This document shows positions 7,436 to 36,645 of a DNA stretch of 64,000 nt, one piece after another; positions within the stretch are counted from its first letter, which is position 1; each line of letters opens with the position of its first letter. The notes under the pieces are model-generated. The model saw only the letters and a program-made list of their open reading frames with translations, did no database searches and was not told the DNA's origin. This DNA is from a bacterium (GTDB taxonomy: Bacteria > Bacillota > Sulfobacillia > UBA995), in contig JAVHLP010000001.1 of the NCBI GenBank assembly GCA_031082145.1, positions 62,001 to 126,000 of the forward strand. The letters are read 5' to 3'. Made by a program: the position numbers and the translations under genes.

Positions 7436-8199
7436 CCTCGTGGGATGATCTCCACCGGCGCCGTGAACCGGCGGCCATCGCCGCCTACCGCGAGCTGGCC
7501 AGTCACCGCTTCCTCCGGGCTACCCTGGCCCGCCTCTTCGTGGCGGGGGACACCGTGCTCGATATCGGCTGCGGGCGGGGCGAGTTCGTGCTGGAACTCG
7601 CCGGACGGGGCGTCAACGCGGTCGGGCTGGACTCGTCCCCTCTGGCCGTGGAGACCCTGCGCCAGGATCTCAGGCAGTCCGGTCTCGACCCCCGGCGAGC
7701 GCTGACGGGCGACGGTCGCAGCCCTCCCTTCAGTGGCTCCAGCCTGGACGGCATCATCGCGCTGGGCCTGCTCGAACACTTCGCCGACCACCCGGCGGTG
7801 CTGGCCCGCTGGGTGGAGTTGCTCAAGCCGGGAGGCCGGATCCTGCTCCAAGTACCCAACGCGGAGCGGTGGGCCTGGTTTGCCTTCGACGTCCTGGCCA
7901 GGCACCTCTTGCTGCGGCGACGATGGGTCGCCCCCCGCCGGACGCCCCGTGGCCTGGTGAGCCGGATCCACGGCTACGAGGAGCGGTGGACAGCCTCCTA
8001 CCTAGCCGGGTTGTGCCGGCAGGCGGGTCTCGAGGAGCTGGAATCCTACAGCGTCTACCGGGCCTGCGCGGCCGAACTGGGCGCCGTCGCCTGCCGCGCC
8101 TGGCCCTGGCTGGAGCGGCAGGCGACGGAACTCCCCGCCCGCAGGGGACTGATCCTGGTCTACGCGGGGCGCAAGCTCACCGGCCCCAGATCTGCCTGA
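7432..8199 (+). CDS. Class I SAM-dependent methyltransferase
   Basis: 255 residues. Motif I VLDIGCGRGEFVLELA (residues 42-57), acidic motif II NAVGLDSSPLAV, motif IV region DGIIALGLLEHFADHP and motif VI LLKPGGRILLQVPN are all present, typical of methyltransferase type 11/12 enzymes. The C-terminal half (MTase core plus HGYEERWTASYLAGLCRQAGL) resembles sugar- or lipid-modifying methyltransferases. GTG 7432 overlaps the stop of the first methyltransferase (GTGA). It overlaps the convergent GT-C-like gene at its 3' end (8177-8199). The precise substrate is not evident. Confidence 0.85.
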   Translation: MTSWDDLHRRREPAAIAAYRELASHRFLRATLARLFVAGDTVLDIGCGRGEFVLELAGRGVNAVGLDSSPLAVETLRQDLRQSGLDPRRALTGDGRSPPFSGSSLDGIIALGLLEHFADHPAVLARWVELLKPGGRILLQVPNAERWAWFAFDVLARHLLLRRRWVAPRRTPRGLVSRIHGYEERWTASYLAGLCRQAGLEELESYSVYRACAAELGAVACRAWPWLERQATELPARRGLILVYAGRKLTGPRSA

Positions 8200-10123
8200 A
8201 GCGTTCGCTTTGCGGTATCGGCTGGCGGATCAGCCAGACTACAATGTCGTCGTCTTCGTAGTAGACCTCGATGTTCTGGTGCGCCGAGGCGTAGACGGCC
8301 ACCCACTCCAGCAGGCGCCGCTCCTCATCCAACCGCCGGGGAACGATCGCCTCGGCCTCGGGCAGCGGCACGTGATAGGGCACGCGCTCATGGAAAAGGA
8401 AGATCCACTCGTGGTCCAGCGGTTCGGATGCGCCGGGCCCCCGGTACACCAGTTCCTCGGCTGCGGGATCGACTCGCTCCAGGAAGTCGCCCACCATCAG
8501 GTGCCAGCCACGCCCATAGGCCAGGGCGTAGCCCTCCTCGTCGGAGACCATCAGCCAGGTCGCCGGGCGGTGCTCGCGGGAGATGCGCAGGTACTGCTCG
8601 ACCCCCGCGTTGTACTGCATCTTATAGGGATCCGCGGGCACCGGGGCGGCCCACCAGGCCCCGGCGACGATCACCGTCGCCGTTGTCACGGCCCACAGGG
8701 TGCGCCACCAGCCTCGCCCCAGACCGGCCAGAGCGCCCCAGGCCACCCCGGCGGACAGGGCCATGGCCAGCGCCAGGAACTCGCCCGAGCGGGTGATCAG
8801 GGCGGCTCTACTGACGCCAAAGCGGGGAGCCTGGTCGATGGCGAAAGAACCGAGGACGATGAAAGCGGTACAGAGCCCCGCGCTGACCGCCTCCCTGCCC
8901 CGCCGCGCCGCCAGTCCCAGCACGATGGCCAGAAACGGCAGAGCCGAGGCCACCACCATGGGGAGGGTGATAGGGCGGACCCACTGCATCTGCTCGGCCA
9001 TGAAGGCCGTTACACCTTCGTGGATGCGGCCACCGAGCGCGAGCCCGACCAGCACCGGCAGGGCCGCCACGACGGCGGCCGCCCCGGCTGCGCCGGCCAG
9101 GATAAGGAAACGCCCGAAGGGCCTGGGACGGGTGAGGAGCACGGCGGCGGCGGCCGCCGCCATCCCCAGCCCGGTGAAGAGCGCTATCAGGCTGTGGACC
9201 AATCCCGTGATGCTGAGGCTGGCGAAAGCGATGAGCAGAGGTCCACGCCTTCCCGTCTCAAGGTAGCGCCACGTGAACACCGTGGCCGGTAGCAGGAACA
9301 CCAGCGCGAATTCCTGCGAGTTCGTCGCCGCCTGGCGCACGAACTCACACGGCAGGAAGGAAGCCCCGATGCCGTAGACTGCCGCGGCGACCAGGCCTCC
9401 CGCCGGCTGGCCGCTGAGCACCCGGGCAGCGAAGTAAAGCCCGAAGACGGCCAGCAGGGAGTTCAGCGGGCCCGTGAACTTCAGCACGCCCAGGGGATCA
9501 ACGGCGGCGAACTTGGCCAGGGTTGAGAGGTAGATGTGGAACCCGTGAGGGTATATGCCGTCGTGGAACACGAGCCGGTTGGTTATGTACTTCATCCAGG
9601 CCAGGGTCACGTAGGAGTCCGCCAACGGCGGCGCGGCGTTCACGATGCCGTCATAGAAGCGCAGGTACGCGGCGAGACCAAACACGAACAGGAAGCTGAT
9701 GCTCATCACCCGGGTAGCCCCGTCGGTCCAGAACCCGGCCCAGAAGGCACGGGCCCGGCGGATCTCATCGCGGCAGAGCTTGAGGAACCGCCGGCCGGCG
9801 CGAGGACTTCGATCCAGGAGTTCGTAGAGATCGGGGGCTGTCGGGTCATCCTGAGGGGGGCGTGACCGGGGCCGCCGCCAGTACCAGACCAGCATGTAGA
9901 TAGCGGCGAGGGACAGGACCTCATATAGCCTGAGGGCCGCCAAGGGGTACACGGCCAGTATGTGGAGGACCACACTCAAGGTCCAGAAACCGTAGAAAGC
10001 TTCGAAACGGTCGTTCCACCAGCCGGCCCCGAGGAGAACGCGGGGGACGATCATGTAGAGCACCGCGAAGGACAGGATCAGGCGGAGAGTCCAGTAGACC
10101 GCAAGGGCCGGTCCAAAGACCAC
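8177..10123 (-). CDS. Polytopic GT-C-like membrane protein (paralogue of the 15545 gene)
   Basis: 648 residues with about 12 hydrophobic helices and a C-terminal extracytoplasmic domain of roughly 150 residues. The first large loop contains LADSYVTLAWMKY and IYPHGFHIYLSTLAKF, the position where GT-C glycosyltransferases and oligosaccharyltransferases carry acidic catalytic residues. The protein at 15545 shares this loop (YPYGFHAFLSML), the segment after it (VLKFTGPL versus VLRFAGPL) and the end domain (DDIVVWLIRQP versus RLRVYHIQHKP). GTG 10123 has AGGAGGG 7 nt upstream. It is divergent from pelF across a 330-bp gap. A lipid-linked sugar transferase or polymerase for the exopolysaccharide is inferred; no named family could be assigned with certainty. 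Confidence 0.7.
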   Translation of the reverse strand: MVFGPALAVYWTLRLILSFAVLYMIVPRVLLGAGWWNDRFEAFYGFWTLSVVLHILAVYPLAALRLYEVLSLAAIYMLVWYWRRPRSRPPQDDPTAPDLYELLDRSPRAGRRFLKLCRDEIRRARAFWAGFWTDGATRVMSISFLFVFGLAAYLRFYDGIVNAAPPLADSYVTLAWMKYITNRLVFHDGIYPHGFHIYLSTLAKFAAVDPLGVLKFTGPLNSLLAVFGLYFAARVLSGQPAGGLVAAAVYGIGASFLPCEFVRQAATNSQEFALVFLLPATVFTWRYLETGRRGPLLIAFASLSITGLVHSLIALFTGLGMAAAAAAVLLTRPRPFGRFLILAGAAGAAAVVAALPVLVGLALGGRIHEGVTAFMAEQMQWVRPITLPMVVASALPFLAIVLGLAARRGREAVSAGLCTAFIVLGSFAIDQAPRFGVSRAALITRSGEFLALAMALSAGVAWGALAGLGRGWWRTLWAVTTATVIVAGAWWAAPVPADPYKMQYNAGVEQYLRISREHRPATWLMVSDEEGYALAYGRGWHLMVGDFLERVDPAAEELVYRGPGASEPLDHEWIFLFHERVPYHVPLPEAEAIVPRRLDEERRLLEWVAVYASAHQNIEVYYEDDDIVVWLIRQPIPQSERFRQIWGR

Positions 10124-10452
10124 CTGTTTACCCTCCTGACGGCCCTTGATGGCGCCGTGACGCCGGGATCACATCCGTACGGGGGTGAGCTTCGGCAGCC
10201 GGACAGGCGACTCCTCTTCACCTGCGCCTCGCGCAGGCGGACGCCGTCCAATGGACGAGCTTTGAAAAAAATCTGGCTAGGCAGGAGGATTCTTGCAGGA
10301 TATGTAGAACAGAGGTTTGTCATTGCAGGTCCGGGTTGATTACCCCGGTGTCCAGGTGGCCCGAGATACCGTCATGGTGCGGGCGCGCCGCAGCTTGGCA
10401 GGCGTTCGCGGCATGGTGGTTGTCGCACTTAGAGAACGTGGAGGGTCCTGAA
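10124..10452 (+). other. Divergent intergenic region upstream of pelF
   Basis: About 330 bp with no convincing gene separate the two divergent transcription units. A perfect 7-bp inverted repeat (CCTGCGC-CTC-GCGCAGG) lies at 10221-10237, and a short A-rich patch occurs at 10264-10271. The region must hold promoters for both directions, but no clear -35/-10 pair could be assigned. It was checked for the c-di-GMP-I riboswitch signature, which was not found. Confidence 0.5.
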
Positions 10453-12201
10453 CTGAGTCGACTCCGGGTCATGCTCACAACCGAAGGGACCTACCCGTTC
10501 CACCGCGGCGGGGTGAGCACTTGGTGCGACGCCCTGGTCAGGCGGATGGAAGAGGTCGACTTTGTCGTATACGCTCTCCTCATGAACCCCTTCGTCCGGC
10601 AGAAGTACGAGCTGCCGGCCAATACCCTGCTTCGCACGACACCCCTCTGGGGAACCGAAGAACCTCTTGAGCACCTGGTTGAGGTTCCTTTCGCCCAGAT
10701 CTACGCGGCCAAGCGCCGTACCACTGATGATGTCATCCGGGCGGAGTTCCTGCCGCTGCTCGAGCCCCTGCTGGAGGCCATCCTTGAGGGAGGCGAGGGC
10801 AGCGGGCTGCAGCTGGGTAAGACGCTTCACTCCTTGTACCAGTACTTCCGCGAGTACGACTACAAGGCCACCTTCAAATCGGCGGCGGCATGGCATCTCT
10901 TTCGGGAGAGGCTAGCCCGGCGCCCGTCTCGCAACGGTAGGCTGCCAGCCAGCGTCTTCGACGCCGCGCAGGCCCTGGGGTGGGTGTACCGGTTCCTGCT
11001 GACGGTGGCCAACCCGGTTCCCGAGGTCGAGGTGACCCACTCCGCCGCGGCGGCGATCTGCGGTCTGCCGTGTGTAATATCAAAGCTGGAGCGGGGTACG
11101 CCCTACCTCCTGACCGAGCACGGCGTGTACCTCAGGGAGCAGTACATAGCGCTGAACCGGCGGCGGGACATGTCCTCGTACTCCAAGGACTTCTTGCTCA
11201 GTCTGGTAACTGCCGTTGCCCGCACGAGCTACGAGAACGCCGACCAGATCTCCCCGGTGTGCGCTTTCAACACCCGGTGGGAACGAGCGTTCGGTGTCCG
11301 GCCGGACAAGATCCGGGTTATCTACAACGGGGTGGACCCGGCCGTGTTCGCCCGCACCCCGGTGGTTCCCGAGGTCCGGAGCACCCCCACGGTGGTCATG
11401 GTGGCCCGCATCGACCCCATCAAGGACGTTGAGAGTGTGATCCGGGCCGCCCGCACGGTACGCGAACACATGCCGGAGGTCAAGTTCCTCATTTACGGCG
11501 GAGTGGCCGTGCCCGAGTACTACCAGCGGTGCTTGGAGTTGCGGGCCGAACTCGGCCTGGATAGCACGGTCATCTTCGCCGGGCATACCGAAGACGTGGC
11601 GGCGGCTTACCGTTCGGGTGACGTCGTCGTGCTGGCCAGTATATCCGAGGGATTCCCGTACTCGGTGGTCGAGGCCATGATGTCAGGCAAGGCGGTGGTC
11701 GCCACCGACGTCGGTGGGGTGAAGGAAGCCCTCTCCGATTGCGGCCTACTTGTCCCGCCACGACGGCCGGACCAACTGGCGTCGGGGATTCTCCGGTTGC
11801 TGAAGGACAGCTCGCTCCGGCAGAGCCTCGGGCAGGAGGCCAGGGAGCGAGCCCTGACCTATTTCACGGTCGCCAGGTTCCTCGAGCAGTATCTGGAGAG
11901 CTACATAGACCTCTACGAGCTGAGCGGGAAGCGCCCGGCCGCCGAACTGGCTAGAGACCGCCAGTACCTGCTGTCCGAGCGCGGCTACGCCCTCCTCGAA
12001 CTCGGCCTCCGGCAGGAAGCCTTGGAGCAGTTCCAGCTGGCGGTGGAGGCTGATCCGGGCAGCGTAGCGACGCCGGTGCTGCTACTGGAGAAAGCTCGCA
12101 TATACCTGGCCATCGGGCAGTTGAACGAAGCGGTGAATGAGATGGAGAAGGCGGAGGTCTTGACTGCCGTGCTGGAGAACCCGGAGAGCGCGGTAGCCTG
12201 A
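10453..12201 (+). CDS. pelF: GT4 glycosyltransferase PelF-like, with C-terminal TPR-like extension
   Basis: The N-terminus RVMLTTEGTYPFHRGGVSTWC and the following block EVPFAQIY are hallmarks of PelF, the cytosolic glycosyltransferase that builds the Pel polysaccharide from UDP-GalNAc-type donors. The GT4 half has VARIDPIKDVESVI (about residue 317) and the SEGFPYSVVEA EX7E motif with VVATDVGG (about residue 397). About 75 residues at the end (ALLELGLRQEALEQFQLAVEADP and following) look like TPR repeats, an addition that may dock partners. The start is uncertain: CTG 10453 has GGAGGG 7 nt upstream and gives a family-like N-terminus; ATG 10471 and GTG 10438 have no good ribosome site. First gene of a long co-directional run. 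Confidence 0.88.
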   Translation: MSRLRVMLTTEGTYPFHRGGVSTWCDALVRRMEEVDFVVYALLMNPFVRQKYELPANTLLRTTPLWGTEEPLEHLVEVPFAQIYAAKRRTTDDVIRAEFLPLLEPLLEAILEGGEGSGLQLGKTLHSLYQYFREYDYKATFKSAAAWHLFRERLARRPSRNGRLPASVFDAAQALGWVYRFLLTVANPVPEVEVTHSAAAAICGLPCVISKLERGTPYLLTEHGVYLREQYIALNRRRDMSSYSKDFLLSLVTAVARTSYENADQISPVCAFNTRWERAFGVRPDKIRVIYNGVDPAVFARTPVVPEVRSTPTVVMVARIDPIKDVESVIRAARTVREHMPEVKFLIYGGVAVPEYYQRCLELRAELGLDSTVIFAGHTEDVAAAYRSGDVVVLASISEGFPYSVVEAMMSGKAVVATDVGGVKEALSDCGLLVPPRRPDQLASGILRLLKDSSLRQSLGQEARERALTYFTVARFLEQYLESYIDLYELSGKRPAAELARDRQYLLSERGYALLELGLRQEALEQFQLAVEADPGSVATPVLLLEKARIYLAIGQLNEAVNEMEKAEVLTAVLENPESAVA

Positions 12202-12223
12202 CGTCGCCGGGAGATGGGAAGCT

Positions 12224-12694
12224 ATGGTTGAGACAGCCAGGCCACAATTCGGGACCGCCTTCCGGGGCTACCGCCCGGCGGAAGTCCACGCTTACATCGA
12301 GAGCATGCTCGTGCGGTTCCGGCAGGAGCAGCAGGAGCTGGCGGCGAAGCTTGACGGTCTTCAGGGGGAGAGGGAGAGCGTCCTCCGGGATCTTGAGGCG
12401 ACCCGGAGCGCTCTTGCCGATCGCGAGAGGTCCGAGAAGATGATCGCCGAAGTACTGATCGAAGCCCAGCAACGGGCGCAGGAGATCTTGGTACAGGCCG
12501 AGGCTCAGGCCGAAGAGGCAAGGCGAAAGGTGGCGGCCGATGTGGCCGCGAGCCGTGCCGAGCTAAACCGTATCCGGGTCGAGATCACGCAGTTCCACCG
12601 TGATTTCTCAAAGATGGTTGAGAGCTACCAGGGTTCGGCCGGGCCGCCGGATCTGCAGGCGACTCTGGAGAAGCTTCGCCGGGTGGCCGATTGA
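12224..12694 (+). CDS. DivIVA-like coiled-coil protein
   Basis: 156 residues. The start, FGTAFRGYRPAEVHAYIESM, matches the DivIVA N-terminal pattern (F..xxRGYxxxEVxxF), which binds curved membrane at poles and septa. Residues 30-125 are a long coiled coil rich in Glu, Gln, Ala and Arg, followed by a short polar tail. DivIVA relatives recruit partners to poles; here it lies between pelF and pelG homologues, so it may place the polymer machine at a cell pole or septum (inference). The ATG lies 22 bp after the pelF stop with GGGAGATGGGAAG upstream. Length is close to that of small GpsB/DivIVA relatives. Confidence 0.75.
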   Translation: MVETARPQFGTAFRGYRPAEVHAYIESMLVRFRQEQQELAAKLDGLQGERESVLRDLEATRSALADRERSEKMIAEVLIEAQQRAQEILVQAEAQAEEARRKVAADVAASRAELNRIRVEITQFHRDFSKMVESYQGSAGPPDLQATLEKLRRVAD

Positions 12695-12710
12695 GGGGTA
12701 GCAGGAGACG

Positions 12711-13820
12711 ATGAGGGCTGGCGCCGAGCCAATCTATGCCGGTGGGCGACACATGAGCCGCCGCCTGGAGCGGAGCGGTCGGCGCTTGGGCTTTGGCTAC
12801 CGCCGGGATGCCGTGGAGCGGTACCTGGCCGAACTGGATGCACACCATGACTCCAGCATCGCCCATCTCCGGTCCGTCCTCAAGCAGACCGCCCAGGCGT
12901 TGACGGCGACAGCCAAGGAGTTGCGGGCCGAACGGGCCCAGCTCAAGGCCAAGGAAGGCCGCCAGCAAGCGGTGGCCGCGGCGCTCACTGAAGCGCAGCG
13001 CCTCGCGGCCGACATCGTGAGCCGGGCCGAGCGTACAGCGGCTATGCGGCTGGCTCAACTCCCCAATCTCCTCGCCGAGGACCGCCGCACACTGGCCCTG
13101 CTCAAGACGGAGACGTTGTCCGCCCGGGAAGAGCTCAAGCGCCTCCTGGACAGCGCGCTGACGGCGGTCGCCACGTCCGGACCGGCTACCGAAGACTTGA
13201 TCGATTCCCGGCTCGCGGCGCGGATCTTGCCCGAGCACGAGAAGACCCGCGCGCTGGTCGCCCTGGGAGCCGACGGGCTGCTCAGGATCGGCCTGCTCGG
13301 GCCAAGCTTGAAGGCCACCACCCAGTCCGGCGCGGTTGTCGGCTGGATAACCCGGTACGTCATCGAGCGCGACTCGGGCGTGCTGATCGGGTACGAAGTG
13401 GGACGCACGGAGATGCCCGGTGTTGTGCCGGCGGGGTCGGTCATCCCGGCCACCAAGGTCCTGGCCGTGACACCGGAGTCACTGCTGGTTCCCAACGACG
13501 TAGGGAACAGCCTGGTTGCCACCTCTCTTGTCGCCGGCGAGCCGTTGCCGGTTAGCCAGGCGCCGTCCCCGGCTCCTCTCCCCAGGGACGAGCGGCAGTT
13601 GACTGCCGAGTCGCGCCAGCGCCAGATGACGTACATCGTGGGCAAGGTCGCGGGACGCGATTTGGTAACGCCTGACGGTGCCGTCATCGTGGGCAAGGGC
13701 GCCCGCATAACGCCGGAGATAGTCGAGGCGGCGCGCGAGGCCGCGCTCCTGCCCGAACTGATCGTGCACATGACCCTTCCCACCCTTCCCGCCACCGGAG
13801 AAGCCCGGGAGACCGGCTGA
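12711..13820 (+). CDS. DivIVA-like coiled coil fused to PRC-barrel-like region
   Basis: 369 residues. An N-terminal GFGYRRDAVERYLAELD again looks like a DivIVA membrane-binding motif, then a coiled coil to about residue 150. Residues 200-265 (GAVVGWITRYVIERDSGVLI, VVPAGSVIPATKVLAVTPESL) resemble a PRC barrel. Residues 305-350 (IVGKVAGRDLVTPDGAVIVGKGARIT) form a second small beta-rich module with a glycine/valine rhythm. The combination with a DivIVA-like head appears unusual. ATG 12711 has AGGAG 4 nt upstream; ATG 12753 (MSRRLERSG) is an alternative. It is tightly linked to pelG, whose ATG starts 2 bp after its stop. A scaffold role is inferred. Confidence 0.65.
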   Translation: MRAGAEPIYAGGRHMSRRLERSGRRLGFGYRRDAVERYLAELDAHHDSSIAHLRSVLKQTAQALTATAKELRAERAQLKAKEGRQQAVAAALTEAQRLAADIVSRAERTAAMRLAQLPNLLAEDRRTLALLKTETLSAREELKRLLDSALTAVATSGPATEDLIDSRLAARILPEHEKTRALVALGADGLLRIGLLGPSLKATTQSGAVVGWITRYVIERDSGVLIGYEVGRTEMPGVVPAGSVIPATKVLAVTPESLLVPNDVGNSLVATSLVAGEPLPVSQAPSPAPLPRDERQLTAESRQRQMTYIVGKVAGRDLVTPDGAVIVGKGARITPEIVEAAREAALLPELIVHMTLPTLPATGEARETG

Positions 13821-13822
13821 AC

Positions 13823-15388
13823 ATGAGCGTCCGCTCTGACGCTGGCCTCGACGCAATCCTCAGCGAACTGGCCGCGACGAGCCACAGCGCCCGGGACCAC
13901 CTCGAGATAGCCGCCGTTCTGGAGAGCATGGGCTGGACCGATCAGCAAGCCGCCGACATGGGATATGATTCTGTCTTCCACCTGGCCGACGTGGTCTACG
14001 GGCTCACCCGGGCCCCGGCACAGGTCAGCACCTTCATCCCGTTGCCCCAGCGATCCCGCCTCGAGGCGGCCATGGTCACCCTTCGCAGCTTCCTCCGGGG
14101 CAGCATGTTCGCCCTGCCCATGCTCATCTCGGTCGGCGCTTTCTTCATGCTCGGATACTCTCTGTGGGCCTCTCTGTACCTCTCGGTGGAGTTGACCACG
14201 GCGGCGGTCCTGGGAACGATATTGAGCTTCGTGGTCACCGGAGGTTTCACCCAGGCCATCGCCAGGCGCGGGATGATGTACCTGGCGCAGGACGAGTACA
14301 ACCTCGCTCGCCGCGTCTCTTTCAGCCTGGTGCGGATGGGCCTGATCGTGGCATTGCTGGCAGGTGTGGCGGTCTGCTTCATAAGCATTGCCTTTGACAT
14401 CTTCCCGATCCGGATGCTGAGCGTTCTCCTGATCTACTACTTCTTCCTCTCCGCCGTGTGGCTCTCCGTCACCATCTTCTACATGCTGCAGCAGGAGCGC
14501 ATGTATACCTTCATCATGACCGCCGGCATCGTGGCGGTGGTCCTGCTGCACGAGGTGGCCCGCCTGGACATCATCCGGGCCCAGATGGTCGCCCTCGGCT
14601 CGGTGGCCCTGGTCTCCTTCCTGGTGGCCCTGAGGCTTTTCATCAAGGCCGAACGCCGGCACGCGGGGGAGTCGGAGGTCGCCCTCCCCCGGTGGTCCAT
14701 AGTGGTATATACTTCCCTCCCCTTCTTTGGCTACGGGTTCCTCCTGTTCAGCTTCCTCTTCATCGATCGCCTGATCGCCTGGTCGGCAGTCTCGGAGTAC
14801 ATGCCTTACTTCATCTGGTTCCGCGGCGAGTACGAGCTTGGACACGACTTCGGCCTGGTCACTCTGGTACTGCCCCTGGGCATGGTGGAGACCATCATCG
14901 TCAGCTCGGTGGAACGGTTGCGCTATCTGCAGTCGCGCTACGACGTGGAACAGCCCCAGGCTTTCCGGGCCGCTTTTCTCGGCCACTACCGCGCCCAGCT
15001 GCGCAACTATCTGGTGGCGGTTGGGGTAAACGGCCTACTGGTTGTGGTGATTGCCGGGTTGGTGTTCGCCCGTTACCCGGCGACCCGCCTCTCACCGGCA
15101 GGTTCCTTCGTCTTCCATTGCACCGTGGTAGGCTACGCCTTGATTGCCGGAGGCCTCATCAACGCTCTCTTCATGTTCTGCCTCTCGCAGCCCCTGCCCG
15201 TCTTGCGCTGCTTCACCACCGCAACGTTAGTCAATATCAGCGTTGCCTTCGTCCTGAGTCGCATGATCAGCTACGAGTGGGCCGTTCTCGGCATGGTCGC
15301 GGGAGCGGGGGTCTTCCTGGTGACGTCCACCCGGGCAGCCCTGGGGCTCCTGTCGGAACTCGACTACTACGTGTACTACCCGGTGTAG
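13823..15388 (+). CDS. pelG: PelG-like polysaccharide transporter
   Basis: 521 residues. A cytosolic N-terminal region of about 75 residues precedes roughly 12 transmembrane helices. The opening of the membrane part, SFLRGSMFALPMLISVGAFFMLGYSLW, and the blocks GGFTQAIARRGMMYLAQDEYN and AVWLSVTIFYMLQQERMYTFI match PelG, the MOP/MATE-superfamily inner-membrane protein that moves Pel polymer across the cytoplasmic membrane with PelF. Usual PelG length is near 450-490; the extra residues are at the N-terminus. It is followed at once by a 41-residue membrane peptide with its own strong ribosome site. Confidence 0.85.
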   Translation: MSVRSDAGLDAILSELAATSHSARDHLEIAAVLESMGWTDQQAADMGYDSVFHLADVVYGLTRAPAQVSTFIPLPQRSRLEAAMVTLRSFLRGSMFALPMLISVGAFFMLGYSLWASLYLSVELTTAAVLGTILSFVVTGGFTQAIARRGMMYLAQDEYNLARRVSFSLVRMGLIVALLAGVAVCFISIAFDIFPIRMLSVLLIYYFFLSAVWLSVTIFYMLQQERMYTFIMTAGIVAVVLLHEVARLDIIRAQMVALGSVALVSFLVALRLFIKAERRHAGESEVALPRWSIVVYTSLPFFGYGFLLFSFLFIDRLIAWSAVSEYMPYFIWFRGEYELGHDFGLVTLVLPLGMVETIIVSSVERLRYLQSRYDVEQPQAFRAAFLGHYRAQLRNYLVAVGVNGLLVVVIAGLVFARYPATRLSPAGSFVFHCTVVGYALIAGGLINALFMFCLSQPLPVLRCFTTATLVNISVAFVLSRMISYEWAVLGMVAGAGVFLVTSTRAALGLLSELDYYVYYPV

Positions 15389-15400
15389 GAGGTGCGGCGG

Positions 15401-15526
15401 GTGCCGGGTTCGTCGCCGCCGGAGGGGCCGCCTCCGGGGAGCAACAACACCGGATGTCTTCTGCTGCTGGCTCTGCTGTTCTTGCTGAACCTGGCTCTCG
15501 TGCTCTTGGCAAGGAGTTCGCGTTAA
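15401..15526 (+). CDS. 41-aa single-pass membrane peptide
   Basis: GTG 15401 to TAA 15526 encodes 41 residues: a Pro/Gly/Ser-rich start (VPGSSPPEGPPPGSNN), one hydrophobic helix (about residues 19-36, very Leu-rich) and a basic end (ARSSR). AGGAGG sits 8 nt upstream of the GTG, overlapping the end of pelG, so it is well placed for coupled translation. The next gene begins 18 bp downstream with another strong site. No known family is recognised. Small subunits of this kind often stabilise large membrane synthases; a role beside PelG or the GT-C-like protein is inferred from position only. Confidence 0.6.
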   Translation: MPGSSPPEGPPPGSNNTGCLLLLALLFLLNLALVLLARSSR

Positions 15527-15544
15527 CCAGGGAGGAAGGCTTTA

Positions 15545-17605: not shown

Positions 17606-17609
17606 AGCT

Positions 17610-18425
17610 ATGAAGAGGGTTCTGATCATGCCGCAGTTCAACGAGGCCCATAACATCCTGGCCGTGCTGGAGGGCGCCATGGCCCACGTCGACCACATCG
17701 TGGTGGTCGACGACGGCTCGACGGACGGGTCGGGAGCCCTGCTACGGCAATGGCAGTCCGTCCACCCCCACGCGTTCACCCTGATCACCCTGGAGCAGAA
17801 CCGCGGCATGTCGGGCGCCCTGCTGGTGGGTTTCAGCCATGTCAACCGCCTGCTGCGGCTGGGTCTCCTCAGGGGGGAGGACGTCATCGTCAACATAGAC
17901 GCCGATGGCCAGCATCGCCCGGAGGAGATCGGGAGCGCCGTCGACCTGCTGGTCACAGGTGGTTACGATGTGGCCCTGGGCCGTCGCGATCTCTCCGGTT
18001 ATCCCCGCCTTAAACAGTTGGGCAACCGGTTCTTGTCCTGGTGGGCCTCGTTTCTCACCGGATTCGCCTATCACGACGTGGAGTGCGGCTTCCGCTTGAT
18101 GCGGGCGAGGGTGGTACCGCAGTTCCTCAGGTATTTCTCGGGGCGCAAGTACGGCTGTGCCCAGGAGATCGGCGTGATCACGGCCCTCTTGCGGCTGTCG
18201 GTCAGCAACGACTTGCCCACCAAGATCAACTACTACCGGCACGGCGCCAGGATAACGGACGGGTTCGTGAACATGTCCATGGGTGCCCTGGCCTGGGCCA
18301 GGGTCAAGCTGGGAATGGCCAGTGACCTCGAGCACTTGGAGCAACGAGTGTTGACCGGTGCCAGGGTCCTCTGCGCGGTAGGGGGTGAACTGTCTGCCCC
18401 CTCGGGGACGGGTACTGGTCACTGA
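17610..18425 (+). CDS. GT2 glycosyltransferase, polyprenyl-phosphate sugar synthase type
   Basis: 271 residues, GT-A fold. Donor-binding motifs: VVVDDGSTDGSGALL (about residue 33), NRGMSGALLVGF, and the DxD-like VNIDADGQH (about residue 96). GFAYHDVECGFRLMRA follows, as in DPM1/ArnC-type enzymes that load sugars onto polyprenyl phosphate. There are no added C-terminal membrane helices. It stands between the GT-C-like membrane protein and the ATP-grasp gene, whose start overlaps its last 41 bp. It likely makes the lipid-linked donor for the membrane glycosyltransferase (inference). Confidence 0.85.
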   Translation: MKRVLIMPQFNEAHNILAVLEGAMAHVDHIVVVDDGSTDGSGALLRQWQSVHPHAFTLITLEQNRGMSGALLVGFSHVNRLLRLGLLRGEDVIVNIDADGQHRPEEIGSAVDLLVTGGYDVALGRRDLSGYPRLKQLGNRFLSWWASFLTGFAYHDVECGFRLMRARVVPQFLRYFSGRKYGCAQEIGVITALLRLSVSNDLPTKINYYRHGARITDGFVNMSMGALAWARVKLGMASDLEHLEQRVLTGARVLCAVGGELSAPSGTGTGH

Positions 18426-19605
18426 CGGGCAGCAACGCAAGGCCCTGGCCGTGGTCCGGTCACTGGGCAGGCGGGGCTTGGCCTGTGACTGCGGCGAGGA
18501 GACCTTTTTCTCCACCACGCGGTTCTCGCGCCACGTGGCGATGGGCCTCGTCTACCCGTCGCCGACCGGCACGCCGGAGCGTTTCTACGCCTGGCTGCGG
18601 GAGCGTCTCAAGGGCGGGCGCTACGCCGTGCTCTACCCCATGGATGACGGGACGACGGCGGTGGTTAGCCGCCATCTCGAAGAGATCCGGGCATTGGTCC
18701 GAGTACCCTTTCCCCCACCCCCGTCGTTTGACCGCGCCGCCGACAAGGGCCTGGCCGTGGAGGCGGCTGCGGCCGCCGGCCTGCGTGTCCCCCGGAGCGC
18801 GGTCGTGGCCGCAGCGGAAGAACTCGTCCCTGCGGCGGCAAGCATCGGTTATCCACTGGTGATGAGGCCCAGACGCGGCTCCGGCGGGCGGGGAGTTGTC
18901 GTCGTACAGGATGAGGAGGAACTGCGGCTGTCCTATTGCCAGTTGGCCGCTCTGGATGCCAGTCCCCTGCTACAGGAATTCCTAGCCACCGGCGAGAAGT
19001 ACGACGTATGCGTACTCATGAACGAGCGGTCGCAGCCAAGGGCGGTTTTTGTCCAGAAGGAACTGAGGCACTTCCCCCTCTTTGCGGGCACCAGCACCCT
19101 ACAGGAGAGTGTGGCGCCCCGACCGGACCTGGTCGACATGAGCATTGCCCTCCTGGAGAAGCTCCACTGGCAGGGTGTGGCCGAGGTGGAATTCATGGTT
19201 GACCGCGACGGCAGGCCCTGGTTCATGGAGATCAACCCCCGCTTCTGGGCTTCACTACAGACGGCGATCAGCGCGGGAGTGGACTTCCCCTACCTCTACT
19301 ACCAGTTGGCCACCGCCGGCGACTGCCCCACCGTGAGGGAGTACCGCACAGGCTTGCGCTGCCGCTGGCTGCTGCCCGGCGACATCTTCCACTTCGCCGC
19401 CAACCCTTCCCGATCGCGGCTCGACCCACCCTTCTGGTCGTTTCGAGCTCCAGACACGGTTGACGATATCATCTCCGCCGAGGATCCCGGACCGATCCTG
19501 GGCTTTGGGCTGGCCGCCCTACGGTACCTGTTCAGCATTCGCATGTGGCGCATGCTGCTGAGGAGGCAAGTCCGTGTCCGCCGTCGTAAACGCCCTGACG
19601 GTTGA
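18385..19605 (+). CDS. ATP-grasp domain ligase
   Basis: 406 residues. ATP-grasp features are visible: PLVMRPRRGSGGRGVVVVQ (ATP-binding glycine loop), LLQEFLATGEKYDVCVLM, and MVDRDGRPWFMEINPRFW with the metal-binding Glu and Asn. The N-terminal part (RVLVTDGQQRKALAVVRSLGRRG) is the pre-ATP-grasp Rossmann segment seen in CarB-like carboxylate-amine ligases. It probably joins a carboxylate to an amine, for example an amino acid to an amino sugar or uronic acid of the polymer (inference). GTG 18385 lies within the end of the GT2 gene, and its own last 32 bp overlap the deacetylase gene, so the three are translationally linked. Confidence 0.82.
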   Translation: MNCLPPRGRVLVTDGQQRKALAVVRSLGRRGLACDCGEETFFSTTRFSRHVAMGLVYPSPTGTPERFYAWLRERLKGGRYAVLYPMDDGTTAVVSRHLEEIRALVRVPFPPPPSFDRAADKGLAVEAAAAAGLRVPRSAVVAAAEELVPAAASIGYPLVMRPRRGSGGRGVVVVQDEEELRLSYCQLAALDASPLLQEFLATGEKYDVCVLMNERSQPRAVFVQKELRHFPLFAGTSTLQESVAPRPDLVDMSIALLEKLHWQGVAEVEFMVDRDGRPWFMEINPRFWASLQTAISAGVDFPYLYYQLATAGDCPTVREYRTGLRCRWLLPGDIFHFAANPSRSRLDPPFWSFRAPDTVDDIISAEDPGPILGFGLAALRYLFSIRMWRMLLRRQVRVRRRKRPDG

Positions 19606-20437
19606 CGTCGAGGACTGGTACCACGTCCACACAATCGACATCCCCGTCTCCCGGTGGCAGGGGTGTGCCGACCGGGTGGGCGACACCACCCGCGAACTGC
19701 TGGCCGTCCTCTCCCGCCACGGGGTCAAGGGCACCTTCTTCGTCCTCGGGCACGTGGCCGACCGGCACCCGGCGCTGGTGCGGGAGATAGCCGGCGAGGG
19801 CCATGAGCTCGGTTCCCATGGTTACTGGCACCGGCTGGTCTACCGCCAGACGCCGGCCGAGTTCCGGGCTGACGTCCGCAAGGCCCGAGCCTGCCTGGAG
19901 GACGTCATAGCGGCGCCGGTCTTCTGGTACCGCGCCCCTTCGTGGTCCATCGGGCCTAAGAGCCTGTGGGCCTTGGAGATCCTCGAGGATGAGGGGTTCA
20001 AGTACGACTCCAGCATCTTCCCCGTCAAGACTCCCCTGTTTGGCGTCTCGGGAGTTCCCCACCACCCCTTCCGGCCCCGGGTCGGGGCCCGGGAACTGGC
20101 GCTCTGGGAGTTGCCTCCCCCCCCGCTACGCCTCGGAGGCATCAACATCCCTTTCACCGGCGGCATGTTCATGAGGCTCTGCCCGCACCGGTTGCTTCTG
20201 TCAGGCATTCGCCGGCTCAATGCCACCGGCAGGCCGGCCCTTGTCTACGTGCATCCCTGGGAACTTCAGCGGCTACCGGTCAGCAGCGGAGCCAAGTGGC
20301 GCCGCTGGTTGCAGGAAGTCAACGTTCATTCGGTTGAGGCCAAGCTGAACTCCGTTCTGCGGGAGTTTCTCTTCGCCCCCGCCGGCGAGGTCCTGGAGGC
20401 TCATCGACGGCAATGGCCCACCCGGGGACAGGAGTGA
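19574..20437 (+). CDS. Polysaccharide deacetylase (XrtA-associated/DUF3473 type)
   Basis: 287 residues of the CE4 NodB fold. LTVDVEDWYHVH supplies the catalytic and metal Asp; ELGSHGYWHRLVYR gives the HxxxH zinc motif; FWYRAPSWSIGPKSLWAL and ALVYVHPWEL are later motifs, the last with the catalytic His. The exact pattern matches deacetylases of exopolysaccharide loci rather than wall PgdA. In Pel systems the PelA protein carries separate hydrolase and deacetylase domains; here the deacetylase is a stand-alone gene and the hydrolase lies at 23732. No signal peptide is seen, so it may act inside the cell on precursors, or be exported another way. GTG 19574 start. Confidence 0.9.
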   Translation: MSAVVNALTVDVEDWYHVHTIDIPVSRWQGCADRVGDTTRELLAVLSRHGVKGTFFVLGHVADRHPALVREIAGEGHELGSHGYWHRLVYRQTPAEFRADVRKARACLEDVIAAPVFWYRAPSWSIGPKSLWALEILEDEGFKYDSSIFPVKTPLFGVSGVPHHPFRPRVGARELALWELPPPPLRLGGINIPFTGGMFMRLCPHRLLLSGIRRLNATGRPALVYVHPWELQRLPVSSGAKWRRWLQEVNVHSVEAKLNSVLREFLFAPAGEVLEAHRRQWPTRGQE

Positions 20438-22023
20438 TCGAGCGCGTTCCCGCCCGGTACGGGCGGCATGTCGGCACGGTGATCCTGGCCAACGCTGTGC
20501 TGGGTGTCGCCGCCGTCGCGCGGGAGGTTGTGCTGGCCGCCAACTGGGGCACTTCCCCCCTGGCCGACGCGTACCTTCTCGCGATGTACCTGCCCGACTT
20601 CGTGGGCCACCTGCTGGTTGGCTCGGTACTGCATCTGGCCGCCGTGCCCTTCCTGGCCCGGGCCGCTCACCAGTCCCTCGAGCACCTGGACCGGGCCTCC
20701 CGCCGCCTTATGGTGGAGGTTGCGGTGGTGATGGGCGTCTTCGCGGTGGCCTGTGGGATCGCCGCTCCGAGCCTGATCCGGCTGCTGGGGCCAGGCCTGA
20801 CGCCAGCCATGCAGGGGCAGGCCGTCGCGTTCCTGCGCTGGATGCTCCCCGCACTCGTCTTCTACCCCCTCTACGGGCTGGGTTCGGGCCGGCACCTGGC
20901 CCGCGGTAGCTTCTGGCAGCCCGCCTGTGGCCCTGTCGTTCTGGCCACGACGGTGGTGGTAAGCCTGGCCGTGGCCGCCCGCACCGGCCGGTTGGAGTTG
21001 ATGGGGCTGGGGCACGCCCTCGGCACTGCCGCCATGTGCGCCCTGCAGCTCGGCCGCTGGGTGGTCAGGCCCGGCCCGGCGATGGCCACCGCCGGCTTCC
21101 ATCCCGCGCCGGTCTACCGCGCCGCCCTGCCCCTGGGGCTGGCCGTGGTGGCCGGGCAGTTCGCGGTCGGCGTGGAACGGGCTGTTGCCTCGGGGCTGGG
21201 AGCGGGGACTATCGCCGCCCTCAACTACGCCGTGAAGGTGGTCAACTTCCCCCTCTGGATCTTCGTGACCGCCATCACCACGGTAACCTTTGCGGAGCTC
21301 TCACAGCATGCGGCCGACGGTGATCGTCCCGGCGCTATCCGGCGAACGCTCGCCGCTCTCAGATTGGTGCTCTTCGTCTCCACTCCCCTGGCCGTGGCCA
21401 CCTTCTTCCTCCGCCGCCAGGTACTCGCCGTGCTGTTCGGCTACGGAGCCTTTGACGCGGCCGCCGTGGCCATCTCGGCGAGGGTCCTGGCGGGATACGC
21501 CCTCTTCGTCCCCGCCGGAGCGATCGTCTTCATCCTCTCACGCTCGTTCCACGCCCGCAGCGAGTTCCGGGTGCCCTTGCGGGCAGCCGTCGCGGGGGCG
21601 GGACTAATGGCCGCCCTGCTCGTGACGATGCCTGCCCGCCTGGGCCCCGCCGCCCTGGGATGGGCCGCGACCGGCGGCGCCTGGCTCCACGCGGGCGTGC
21701 TGGGCCTGGTTGCCCGTTCCCAGTTGGATGTCACCTGGCAGCGGCTAGGGCGGGGCTCGGCGCAACTCCTGGTGGCCGTTCTGCCGCCGGCGCTGGTGGC
21801 CTGGCTGGCCGCCCGGTTCGTCGGCGACGCCTGGCTGGTGGCGCCGGTTCTGGCCCGGGCGATGGGAGCAGGGCTGGTTGCAGTCACGGTATCCGCGGCC
21901 TACATAGCCGGTTGCGCGTTGAGCGGGATACGCTGGCCAGAGGAGTTCTCGCTGCTGGGGAAGTCTGCCCTACAGCCCGGGCAGGCACACCGCAGCCACC
22001 CCGTGGGGAGGGCGGGTTCATGA
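20413..22023 (+). CDS. MurJ/MviN-family flippase
   Basis: 536 residues with about 13-14 membrane helices. AREVVLAANWGTSPLADAYLLAMYLPD matches the start of MviN/MurJ lipid II flippases. Later RAALPLGLAVVAGQFAVGVERAVASGLGAGTIAALNYAVKVVNFPLWIF is the usual second half. Because it sits inside the polymer locus rather than with cell-wall genes, it could flip a lipid-linked repeat of this polysaccharide instead of lipid II (inference). It overlaps the deacetylase gene by 25 bp and its TGA overlaps the ATG of the HD-GYP gene. Confidence 0.87.
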   Translation: MAHPGTGVIERVPARYGRHVGTVILANAVLGVAAVAREVVLAANWGTSPLADAYLLAMYLPDFVGHLLVGSVLHLAAVPFLARAAHQSLEHLDRASRRLMVEVAVVMGVFAVACGIAAPSLIRLLGPGLTPAMQGQAVAFLRWMLPALVFYPLYGLGSGRHLARGSFWQPACGPVVLATTVVVSLAVAARTGRLELMGLGHALGTAAMCALQLGRWVVRPGPAMATAGFHPAPVYRAALPLGLAVVAGQFAVGVERAVASGLGAGTIAALNYAVKVVNFPLWIFVTAITTVTFAELSQHAADGDRPGAIRRTLAALRLVLFVSTPLAVATFFLRRQVLAVLFGYGAFDAAAVAISARVLAGYALFVPAGAIVFILSRSFHARSEFRVPLRAAVAGAGLMAALLVTMPARLGPAALGWAATGGAWLHAGVLGLVARSQLDVTWQRLGRGSAQLLVAVLPPALVAWLAARFVGDAWLVAPVLARAMGAGLVAVTVSAAYIAGCALSGIRWPEEFSLLGKSALQPGQAHRSHPVGRAGS

Positions 22024-23771
22024 GCTACGTCACGGTACCGGCACTCCTGGCGGGAGGGCTTCTGATCGCCCTGATCATGTGTGTCGTGCTGCGCCACCAG
22101 GCTCAAGCTGCTCGCCGCCGTACCGAACTACACCGCCGCTGTCTCGACCTTCTTGATCCTGACCTCCGCTCGGAGGCGGTGGCCACCGGGATCCTGGAGG
22201 TGGTGGCCGGGATCGTGCAGGCCCCCGGTTACTATCTGTACCTGGCCGACGATTCCGGCGATTTCCTGCTGGCAGGAGCCAAGGTATCCGCCAAGGGCAT
22301 ACCGGTGGGCCCCGATTATAGCGGCCTGGTGCAAGGTTTCCCCGACTACGAGCCACCCCTGAGCCTGCAGCCGGGCCGGCTGGCGGTCACCGGACCCCAC
22401 CTGCTGACGATCACTCTGGCCCGAAAGACAGGCCAGACCGACGGGCTTATTCGATTGGGTCCTTTTCTCCGCCGGGGCCGCCCTTCATCGCTCGGGTTGC
22501 TCGAGGAGCTTGCCCCCGTCCTGGCCGGGGTTATCGCGGTTCCCCGCGCAGCCGCAACCGTGCGCCAGGAGATTGCGGTCTCCTCCAGCCGGGCCCGTGC
22601 CCACGGTGCCGCGGCCCGGCTGGCTTTCAGTATCGAGGAGGTCATGGCCACTCTGGTTCGGCTGGGCCTGCGACTGCTCAGGGCTGATACCGGGTTGCTG
22701 GTCAGCCTCGCCGGCCCCACTCTCAAGGCCAGCGTGGGCACATCGGGCGAGCCAACCGAGGCAGCCCTCCGTCAACTGCTGACCCTGACTCCCGGTTCCG
22801 CCCCGACCACCCTTGCCCCCGGGGTTCAGCTAGCCCTCGGCCTGTCCGGACATGTGGTGGCCTTCGGTGTCGGGGACGACGCCAGGCTCTTCTACGCCCT
22901 TCCCAACCCGGGGCCGGTTGGCGCCCATCTCCGGGCGGGGCTGGCCACGGTGACCCAGCACCTCTCGCTTGTGATGCGGCACGACGAGCTCTACTCCCGT
23001 GTCAGCCAGTCCTACCTGCACGCCCTGCAGGGGTTGGTGGACGTACTCGACTCGCGGGAGCCACATATGGTCGGGCACTCCCGCCTGGTAGCCAAGTGGG
23101 CGCGGGAGATCGCCCTGGAGCTAGACCTGCCGGCCGCAGAGGCCGCCCGCATTCACCAGGCGGGGCTCCTGCACGATGTGGGCATGCTCGCTCTGGACGA
23201 GGGTATTCTCTTCAAGGAAGGACAACTCTCCGACCAGGAACGCAAGGCAGTTCAGGCTCACCCGGACACGGGAGCGGCGATGCTCGAGGGAGTGCCTGAC
23301 GGGGCCCTCCTGGCCCCCATGGTCCGGTTCCATCACGAACGCTGGGACGGCTGGGGATACCCGGATCGGCTGCGGGGCGAGGCCATACCGCTAGCGGCGA
23401 GGATCATAGCCCTGGCTGAGGTCTTCGTGGCCAAGTTCTCCCGCCGCCCTTACCGGCCGCCACTTCCCTTCGGCCGGGTGCTATCAGACATGGCGAATTC
23501 CGGCGGCAGCCACTTCGACCCCCAGGTGGTCCAGGCACTGCTGCGCCGGATCGAGCTTAAGCAGCGCCTGGCCCCGGAAGGTCGTTCGCTGGAGCCTTGC
23601 TGGGAGCTCAAGCAATGCCCTGTTTCGGTCAAGGAGGCGTGCCCCGCCGCCGCTTCCACCACCAATTGCTGGAGGGTGGCCCGCGTTCTGTGCCGAGCCC
23701 ATGGCGACGAGGACTGCAGCGAGTGCATGGTATGGACGGAGCTGAAGACCCGCCCCCCCGGGGCGCGCTAG
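22020..23771 (+). CDS. Membrane HD-GYP protein with C-terminal two-CW-like cysteine domain
   Basis: 583 residues. One N-terminal membrane helix (residues 7-25), a GAF-like middle region (about 165-320), then an HD-GYP domain. This includes DSREPHMVGHSRLVAKWA, HDVGML (His385-Asp386), HHERWDGWGYPDRLRG and an EVF in place of the usual DVYDA-like end. HD-GYP enzymes hydrolyse c-di-GMP. The last 55 residues hold nine cysteines (CWELKQCP, CPAA, NCW, LCRA, DCSECMVW), like the two-CW domain seen in bacterial signalling proteins, and might sense metal or redox state. No GGDEF or PelD is nearby. ATG 22020 overlaps the flippase stop; longer upstream frames would run through the flippase gene. Confidence 0.88.
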   Translation: MSYVTVPALLAGGLLIALIMCVVLRHQAQAARRRTELHRRCLDLLDPDLRSEAVATGILEVVAGIVQAPGYYLYLADDSGDFLLAGAKVSAKGIPVGPDYSGLVQGFPDYEPPLSLQPGRLAVTGPHLLTITLARKTGQTDGLIRLGPFLRRGRPSSLGLLEELAPVLAGVIAVPRAAATVRQEIAVSSSRARAHGAAARLAFSIEEVMATLVRLGLRLLRADTGLLVSLAGPTLKASVGTSGEPTEAALRQLLTLTPGSAPTTLAPGVQLALGLSGHVVAFGVGDDARLFYALPNPGPVGAHLRAGLATVTQHLSLVMRHDELYSRVSQSYLHALQGLVDVLDSREPHMVGHSRLVAKWAREIALELDLPAAEAARIHQAGLLHDVGMLALDEGILFKEGQLSDQERKAVQAHPDTGAAMLEGVPDGALLAPMVRFHHERWDGWGYPDRLRGEAIPLAARIIALAEVFVAKFSRRPYRPPLPFGRVLSDMANSGGSHFDPQVVQALLRRIELKQRLAPEGRSLEPCWELKQCPVSVKEACPAAASTTNCWRVARVLCRAHGDEDCSECMVWTELKTRPPGAR

Positions 23772-24529
23772 CCGGGATCGGCAGTTACGCCCTGTACTAC
23801 GGGCGCGGCTACCTGGACTCCCTGGCCGCGTTCGACCTCGCCGTCTTGGAGCCACGGGCATGGATACCGGAGGACATTCACCTGCTGAGAGAACGCGGGA
23901 CGAGGGTGCTCGCTTACATGAGCACCCTGGAGGTCGGCGTTGACGAGTTCAATCCCTCCGGCGGTTACGAACTCCTTCATGTCGAAGGTCAACCCCTCCT
24001 GAACCACGTCTACAACAACTTGCTTCTCGTGCCTTCCCGCCACCGCAGCGAAACCCTCGCCGCCCAAGCCCAGCGGTTGATCCGTGACTACGACGGGGTG
24101 TTCCTCGACACCCTGGGAGCGGTGGAAGACGAACGGATCCCGCCTGACCGGCGCCTGGAACTGGCCATCGGTGCCGGTCACCTGGTCCGGCAACTCCGGA
24201 GTGCTTGTCCAGGCGCCGTGATCGTGCAGAACATGGGGATCTGGGGAGTGCACCGCTTTACCCGGAACTACGTGGACGGACTCTGCTGGGAGTCGTTCCC
24301 GGCGTCCCTCAGTTCGGCGCCGGCGTGGCTGGACGCAAAGGCCGGAGAGCTGGCGGCCTGGTCCGCCGGGACCGCCCGGCGTATCCTGCTCCTAGTTCAG
24401 GATGGCCCCCTGGCCGACGACGAGTGGTTGAGTTCCTGGGCTAGCTCCCGGGGCTGGCCGGTATACCTGGCACCGGGAGACTACACTACCGGGATCGGCC
24501 GTAGTCTACCGGCCCGCGGCCAGCAGTGA
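23732..24529 (+). CDS. GH114 endo-alpha-1,4-polygalactosaminidase-like hydrolase (PelA-like)
   Basis: 266 residues. AGIGSYALYYGRGYLDSLAAFDLAVLEPRA, GTRVLAYMSTLEVG, YDGVFLDTLG (a likely catalytic Asp) and AVIVQNMGIWG follow the GH114 barrel of PelA, which cleaves partially deacetylated GalNAc polymer. No signal peptide is evident; the protein begins almost directly with the domain, which is odd for an enzyme expected outside. ATG 23732 overlaps the HD-GYP gene by 40 bp. It is the last gene of the co-directional polymer locus. The DUF297/TM1410-type subset of this fold would be an alternative name. Confidence 0.82.
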   Translation: MDGAEDPPPRGALAGIGSYALYYGRGYLDSLAAFDLAVLEPRAWIPEDIHLLRERGTRVLAYMSTLEVGVDEFNPSGGYELLHVEGQPLLNHVYNNLLLVPSRHRSETLAAQAQRLIRDYDGVFLDTLGAVEDERIPPDRRLELAIGAGHLVRQLRSACPGAVIVQNMGIWGVHRFTRNYVDGLCWESFPASLSSAPAWLDAKAGELAAWSAGTARRILLLVQDGPLADDEWLSSWASSRGWPVYLAPGDYTTGIGRSLPARGQQ

Positions 24530-27593: not shown

Positions 27594-27605
27594 GTGGGTG
27601 AAGAG

Positions 27606-29824: not shown

Positions 29825-29825
29825 G

Positions 29826-30575: not shown

Positions 30576-30622
30576 TTGCCGGGCGATTCGATGGAGTCGA
30601 GGATCATGGGGGCTGATGGCAG

Positions 30623-36405: not shown

Positions 36406-36464
36406 GCCGTCTTCCTCCCGCAACGAAATTGGCCAGAACCATCGCCGGCTCTGGCACGTGACGG

Positions 36465-36545: not shown

Positions 36546-36645
36546 CCCTTGGGGCGTCCTTTAGGGATGGCGAACTCGGAAGCACAGTATTGAGTTGTGA
36601 GTTGGGTTTTCGACCGGGGAGGCCGAGGATCCTGCCGGCAGGCGA

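Follow-up and report, generated by a model that had tools for sequence, protein, structure and literature searches.

A conserved gene cluster of Bacillota combines PelF with GT-C membrane enzymes, DivIVA-like proteins and an altered HD-GYP protein in a probable Pel-type exopolysaccharide system

The window analyzed here is a stretch of 64,000 nucleotides of contig JAVHLP010000001.1, in which a gene cluster spans positions 8177–24529 (10.3–24.5 kb from the PelF gene onward). With a probability of roughly 55%, this Bacillota cluster encodes an exopolysaccharide system that is synthase-dependent and of the Pel type, and whose components, taken as a whole, would play the roles proposed below. The cluster is conserved, and apparently undescribed, in many spore-forming bacteria; no description of the neighborhood of DivIVA-like, GT-C and HD-GYP genes was found in the open-access papers searched, including those on Gram-positive Pel. 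The host assembly is a draft of 34 contigs (2.34 Mb, 67% G+C) that probably derives from a spore-forming member of Bacillota, since homologues of SpoIVA and SpoIIP were recognized by eye.

A survey of about 85,000 species genomes, using an alignment of eight PelG-like proteins as the query, recovered 67 loci, all labelled as Bacillota except for one contig of a Smithella metagenome-assembled genome. The cluster copy on that contig (L062) resembles the Pelotomaculum copy (L028), and the Smithella assignment is therefore a probable misbinning. Genes were counted in the 53 stretches longer than 19 kb, which comprise 52 relatives and the window; the presence of PelG in 53/53 is trivial because the survey was seeded with it, and the other counts are lower bounds because the 10 kb flank cuts many relatives. 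PelF and at least one GT-C protein occur in all 53 long loci, the HD-GYP protein and DivIVA-like protein B in 48 each, GT2 in 47, the PelA-type hydrolase in 41, and DivIVA-like protein A and the ATP-grasp ligase in 37 each. Two or more GT-C genes are found in 30/53, MurJ in 26/53 and the deacetylase in 24/53. The recurrent order in the relatives is PelF-DivIVA-DivIVA-PelG-GT-C-...-HD-GYP-hydrolase, and the strongest direct adjacencies are PelG with GT-C (57 adjacent pairs across the loci), DivIVA-like B with PelG, DivIVA-like A with B, PelF with DivIVA-like A, and HD-GYP with the hydrolase. A neighborhood survey had been proposed by the first-pass annotation of this DNA, and the same set indeed recurs in dozens of genomes.

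A chance mosaic of unrelated envelope genes, confined to one genome, has next to no likelihood. Such a mosaic would agree with the finding that the other seven genomes of the order lack a PelG-like gene (1/8 carry it); it is rejected because the set recurs in 52 further long loci across Paenibacillus, Desulfosporosinus, Alicyclobacillus, Sulfobacillus and others. Culturable carriers include Paenibacillus, Tumebacillus, Psychrobacillus and Alicyclobacillus. The distribution in the phylum is patchy, as judged from the single carrier in the order and from the 8/398 genomes of the phylum that possess a PelG-like gene.

The PelF protein of the window scores 162 bits against the PelF equivalog model of NCBIfam (NF038011, cut-off 100), and the canonical PelF profile matches PelF-family proteins across the loci, with a best score of 263 bits over the full length. 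DUF3492, the N-terminal domain of PelF, is present in 10/249 Bacillota genomes, all ten of which also encode a canonical or a new-type PelG, the two genes standing side by side in the loci that were read. An ordinary GT4 enzyme is rejected on the basis of the equivalog match and of the confinement of DUF3492 to genomes with PelG, and the PelF-like identity given at first has passed its hidden Markov model (HMM) check. In the phylogenetic tree, the new family forms one clade (support 98/91) apart from canonical Gram-positive PelF (100/99), with long branches between them. The new-family proteins display a C-terminal surplus with a median of 92 residues, compared with 3–15 in canonical PelF, and TPR repeats are located in this tail in both proteins tested.

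The window hydrolase alone falls below the threshold of the GH114 model PF03537, which is matched by 29/31 family members. For a profile of the 31 members, the E-values are 1.7e-24 and 1.1e-23 with PelA structures, and 5.5e-9 and weaker with GH114/GH191 structures. Residues Asp114 and Glu175 (window hydrolase numbering) are invariant in 31/31 members and align with positions 135 and 193 of the 5tcb chain. By arithmetic from the construct numbering, these correspond to Asp160 and Glu218 of PelA; Glu218 is catalytic in PelA (PMC9894940). Judged by its sequence, the enzyme has its nearest relative in the PelA hydrolase (GH166), and both catalytic residues are kept. The earlier assignment to GH114 proper is consequently retained as a family-level Pfam match of most relatives, and rejected for the window protein, which fails the Pfam model and has the PelA hydrolase domain as its closest solved relative. 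The PelA-type hydrolase with its conserved catalytic pair provides the best evidence for a galactosamine-based polymer, which is predicted for this system.

An alternative explanation is that the PelF-type glycosyltransferase makes another chain, for instance a wall-attached or S-layer-type glycan, in an island that serves surface glycans in general and is fed by the nonulosonate-type genes found downstream at 27.6–32.2 kb. This agrees with the remote similarity of PelG and with the presence of MurJ, GT2, GT-C and ATP-grasp proteins, which are typical of lipid-linked glycans, but it is decidedly unlikely given the PelA-type hydrolase in 41/53 loci, with an intact catalytic pair in 31/31 aligned sequences, and given that the nonulosonate-type genes lie outside the neighborhood conserved in the loci of relatives.

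The deacetylase reaches 265 bits against TIGR03006 (cut-off 276), and its sequence places it with the CE4/DUF3473 enzymes of the XrtA type, not with the PelADA type. The separation of the two PelA functions, which had been regarded as unusual, is the rule in Gram-positive Pel systems (PMC7112168). No exosortase was found in the window genome. Loci of the Sulfobacillus/Alicyclobacillus type contain a gene of the exosortase family (PF09721, E 2.6e-18 in L087, with members of its sequence cluster also in L064, L070, L074, L077 and L083), together with a small low-complexity secreted protein that ends in PE(T/V)PYA, a transmembrane (TM) stretch and a basic tail. The exosortase/PE(T/V)PYA coordinates are L064:16500-16814, L070:5414-5746, L074:18838-19137, L077:17609-17956 and L087:18680-19114 (with L087:19226-20230), and the two genes likely encode a dedicated exosortase-substrate pair.

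The PelG-like protein matches PF16933 collinearly across model positions 34–452 of 452, with a score (18.3 bits) below the cut-off of 29, and 17/55 members of its family match the same model (best E 1.4e-7). The earlier PelG-like claim is supported by the collinear match and by these relatives, and falls short in the score of the window protein itself. A profile-profile comparison with canonical PelG gave E 2.5e-4 over 389 columns, with 43% as the hhalign probability. The new PelG received no useful E-value from an HMM built on seven canonical PelG proteins, and a sequence search against the PDB returned nothing useful. The family possesses an N-terminal extension of about 85 residues (window 13823–14090) with the conserved motif AAxLESxGWNDxRA...FG..DVF.LA, for which no significant match was found in other proteins of the loci.

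Several parts of described Pel systems were not detected. A profile of four canonical PelE proteins had 0 matches in the loci, although this fast-evolving protein could escape it. The sensory part of PelD (GAF plus GGDEF) was not found in the loci or in the host genome with the canonical PelD profile, whose best matches in both cover the N-terminal epimerase part only; in the loci, this match is a stand-alone epimerase that is often near PelF. The Pfam model of the PelD GGDEF domain was silent on the control, and the canonical PelD alignment was used for the host genome instead. For the CE26-type PelADA deacetylase, the canonical profile yielded just two marginal local matches in the loci. The reported lack of PelD and PelE is thus borne out in the loci and, for the PelD sensory part, in the host genome as well. 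PelB and PelC are also missing, as had been noted, and this is expected in a monoderm rather than unusual.

The two DivIVA-like proteins of the earlier description stand on different footing: protein A passes the Pfam threshold, whereas protein B leaves the Pfam DivIVA model silent and was identified through its family alignment. Protein B consists of a DivIVA-like N-terminal segment, a coiled coil, a PRC-barrel-like region and a conserved C-terminal motif of about 55 residues; the PRC-barrel-like region is found only in some members, with a PF05239 match in the relative L062. A true DivIVA (154 bits) is encoded elsewhere in the genome, and by sequence proteins A and B look like specialized paralogues. 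Polar placement of the complex may be anticipated from their DivIVA-like sequence. PelE bears TPRs, and its replacement by the TPR tail of PelF together with a DivIVA-like scaffold is conceivable. In the canonical complex, PelE is the interaction hub (PMC13254593).

GT-C 1 and GT-C 2 are paralogous polytopic proteins. The AlphaFold2 model of GT-C 2 (mean predicted local distance difference test score, pLDDT, 89.9; predicted TM-score 0.91) matches STT3, PglB, AglB, DPY19, AftA and ArnT in Foldseek at E 3e-7 to 8e-4; the values for PDB entries are 3.4e-7 for oligosaccharyltransferase (OST), 3e-5 for PglB and 3e-4 for ArnT. In the model, the multi-TM GT-C fold class is clear, and the specificity is not, because the TM-scores are about 0.4. 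Asp174 is conserved in 91% of the family and is a candidate for the catalytic acidic residue that GT-C enzymes carry in their first external loop. The family has no sequence match in the PDB or NCBIfam and a single weak relevant match (DUF6541) among 57 members in Pfam. The nearest NCBIfam models of the window GT2 are of the ArnC and PpgS types, below cut-off. The GT2 group is loose: in many relatives GT2 is followed by DUF2304, which does not adjoin the window GT2, and a tested GT2 of this kind is nearest to PpgS and AglJ. The GT-C pair and the lipid-linked glycosylation parts of the earlier description are therefore upheld by the GT-C fold with its paralogue, the affinity of GT2 to polyprenyl-phosphate-sugar synthases and the DUF2304 partner in relatives. 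From fold and gene order, transfer of lipid-linked sugar to the polymer may be proposed.

It is unlikely that the cluster is an ordinary Pel locus with extra neighbors, in which a Bacillus cereus-type polymer is made while GT-C, GT2, ATP-grasp and MurJ serve another co-located glycan. The PelF equivalog, the PelA-type hydrolase, the deacetylase, and the GalE and CotH-VTC-DUF4956 neighbors are all as in Gram-positive Pel; a GalE-like epimerase cluster is present in 24 loci, and CotH, VTC and DUF4956 genes occur together in three (L031, L034 and L057, one representative of each gene having been checked with Pfam). Against this explanation, GT-C directly follows PelG in the 57 adjacent pairs and occurs at least once in every long locus, and the failure to find PelE, PelADA and the PelD sensory part in the loci points to a different machine even if the backbone is the same.

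The model of the N-terminal part of the HD-GYP protein (pLDDT 87.6) shows two GAF-like domains and, at the N-terminus, a long hydrophobic helix that is interpreted as a TM anchor; the matches are to GAF-PHY and tandem-GAF structures. In active HD-GYP enzymes the ligand set is H189, H221, D222 and D305 plus K225 (PmGH numbering, PMC4159591), and the family departs from it. Among 36 members, the Lys of HDxGK is kept in none, the final metal Asp in 7 and the His of the HD pair in 17; the pair is lost in about half and reads SN in most Bacilli. All four variable metal ligands checked are kept in 6/36, so that 30/36 lack at least one, and HHE, GYP and the substrate-site Arg motif RxYR are nearly invariant. 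The window protein keeps the HD pair, HHE, GYP and three ligands, and carries Glu for D305 and Met for K225. In the six other HD-GYP proteins of the genome, the HD pair is present in 6/6 and the final Asp in 5/6, with the Lys missing in 2/6. The TM-GAF-GAF-HD-GYP layout and the loss of catalytic-site residues in most relatives make this protein a candidate substitute for PelD as a receptor of cyclic di-GMP (c-di-GMP).

As regards regulation only, the HD-GYP protein could instead be an active phosphodiesterase that lowers local c-di-GMP, an option otherwise compatible with a Pel-type system. The HD pair, HHE and GYP of the window copy and the six relatives with all four checked ligands speak for it. 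We regard it as somewhat unlikely because of the 30/36 members without at least one ligand, the SN of most Bacilli, and the inactive or weak PmGH mutants at the corresponding sites: no activity is left with Ala at H189, H221 or D222, the outcome for K225 is similar, and that for D305 is a reduced activity (PMC4159591).

In the Pel-type system that we favor, PelF would polymerize a chain of the alpha-1,4-N-acetylgalactosamine/galactosamine (GalNAc/GalN) type in the cytosol, for export across the membrane by the PelG-like protein. GT2 would load sugar onto polyprenyl phosphate, from which the STT3/ArnT-like GT-C enzymes would transfer it on the outer side; the polymer would probably receive it in side chains or in a terminal modification. 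Trimming of the product would fall to the PelA-type hydrolase and the CE4 deacetylase. The scaffold role of PelE and PelD would pass to DivIVA-like proteins A and B, next to the TPR tail of PelF itself, and these proteins may position the complex where the membrane is curved. In regulation, PelD would be replaced by the TM-GAF-GAF-HD-GYP protein, which would most likely act as a c-di-GMP receptor and not as a normal phosphodiesterase. This system is favored by the PelF equivalog match, the occurrence of DUF3492 in genomes with PelG, the PelA-type hydrolase with its invariant catalytic pair, the GalE-like and CotH-VTC-DUF4956 neighbors, the GT-C fold, the residue pattern of the HD-GYP family and the conserved adjacencies from PelF to GT-C. 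The more specific proposal, a second monoderm Pel lineage that makes a galactosaminoglycan decorated with side chains via lipid-linked sugars, with DivIVA-like scaffolds and a pseudo-enzyme HD-GYP receptor in place of PelD, is advanced tentatively.

Four points weigh against the favored explanation. The sequence relation to PelG is remote. The window HD-GYP protein may retain activity, as its HD pair is kept, though Glu and Met occupy the other two sites. The deacetylase, MurJ and ATP-grasp genes look accessory, being found in about half to two thirds of the loci. We infer, moreover, both the GalNAc-based polymer and the acceptor of the GT-C enzymes.

The features of the cluster are compiled in the table. 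All genes of the first-pass list were recovered by translation and Pfam, including GT2, ATP-grasp, the MurJ-like flippase and the stand-alone deacetylase; they are co-directional and overlapping with the exception of the divergent GT-C gene 1. The first coordinates were correct overall and differ in start codons, which lie probably at ~10.44 kb for PelF, at 22020 for HD-GYP and at ~23768 for the hydrolase.

Table. Genes of the cluster, in window coordinates.
Product	Position	Strand	Evidence
GT-C-type membrane glycosyltransferase 1, divergent paralogue	8177..10123	-	28% identical to GT-C 2, E 5e-37
PelF-like GT4 polymerase with C-terminal TPR extension	10336..12201	+	DUF3492 E 1e-43, GT4, TPR (Pfam); NCBIfam PelF equivalog
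DivIVA-like protein A	12224..12694	+	PF05103 32 bits, cut-off 28
DivIVA-like protein B	12711..13820	+	Family alignment
PelG-like MOP-superfamily exporter, ~85-residue N-terminal extension	13823..15388	+	PF16933 18.3 bits; profile-profile with canonical PelG
GT-C-fold membrane glycosyltransferase 2, STT3/PglB/ArnT-like	15545..17605	+	AlphaFold2 model and Foldseek
GT2, polyprenyl-phosphate-sugar synthase type	17610..18425	+	PF00535 E 3.5e-22
ATP-grasp ligase	18385..19605	+	PF02786 E 2.6e-14
CE4 polysaccharide deacetylase with DUF3473	19574..20437	+	PF01522, PF11959
MurJ-like flippase	20413..22023	+	PF03023 E 2e-56
TM-GAF-GAF-HD-GYP regulator (predicted), altered active site, Cys-rich tail	22020..23771	+	PF13487 E 7.5e-37
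PelA-hydrolase-type (GH166-like) endo-galactosaminidase (predicted)	23768..24529	+	Family profile against PelA structures

Directly downstream, a nonulosonate-type run at 27594–32213 encodes Polysacc_synt_2, a DegT aminotransferase, CTP_transf_3, GNAT and NeuB. Two riboswitches are located further along the window on the minus strand: a Moco/tungsten riboswitch (36458–36593) 5' of an apparent ABC-type oxyanion (tungstate-like) transporter, and a cobalamin riboswitch (60009–60223) 5' of an apparent cobalamin-type ABC transporter.

PelD and PelE are core parts of the Pel systems described so far. The conserved family of Bacillota keeps PelF, an exporter and the PelA-type hydrolase, and would swap the sensor and the scaffold and add OST-like enzymes. 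This makes three questions testable: what constitutes the minimal Pel core, whether a polysaccharide synthase can be gated by an HD-GYP domain that is degenerate, and whether DivIVA-type proteins can determine where exopolysaccharide synthesis takes place in firmicutes. New here are the OST/ArnT-type GT-C fold, the PelA-type (GH166) hydrolase, the TM-GAF-GAF-HD-GYP architecture, the TPR tail of PelF and the CotH-VTC-DUF4956 genes in three loci. The latter constitute a published accessory module of streptococcal and clostridial pel operons. The operon pelDEADAFG is the one described by Whitfield 2020, its companion paper and later work on Gram-positive Pel. According to the companion paper, some Gram-positive loci have only pelF and pelG, and these may include the new cluster type.

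A comparison with known systems reveals both shared and divergent parts. The Gram-positive Pel operon of B. cereus ATCC 10987 is pelDEADAFG (PMC7112168, PMC13254593), and the new loci resemble it in PelF, the PelG-type exporter, the separate deacetylase, the PelA-type hydrolase, the GalE neighbor and, in some loci, CotH-VTC-DUF4956. By contrast, PelE, the PelD GAF-GGDEF part and PelADA are not detected in them, two DivIVA-like proteins, GT-C, GT2 and HD-GYP are added, PelF falls in a separate clade with a C-terminal TPR tail, and PelG is very divergent. PelF, the PelG-like exporter and the PelA hydrolase function are likewise shared with pelABCDEFG of Pseudomonas aeruginosa, whereas the outer-membrane PelB and PelC as well as PelD and PelE are missing and the PelA functions reside on two genes. 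PelD combines TM, GAF and a degenerate GGDEF domain; the new protein is similar in its TM and GAF parts and in a c-di-GMP-type module whose catalytic residues are lost in most copies, but this module is HD-GYP and not GGDEF, which makes the likeness one of analogy, not homology. Proteins A and B share the DivIVA-like N-terminus and coiled coil with DivIVA, although the true DivIVA of the genome is a separate gene, and GT-C 2 shares its predicted fold with STT3/PglB, ArnT and AftA, although its family has no sequence match to the PDB or NCBIfam. The cluster accordingly agrees with the distinct system first suggested for it, Pel-type yet different from the described pelDEADAFG.

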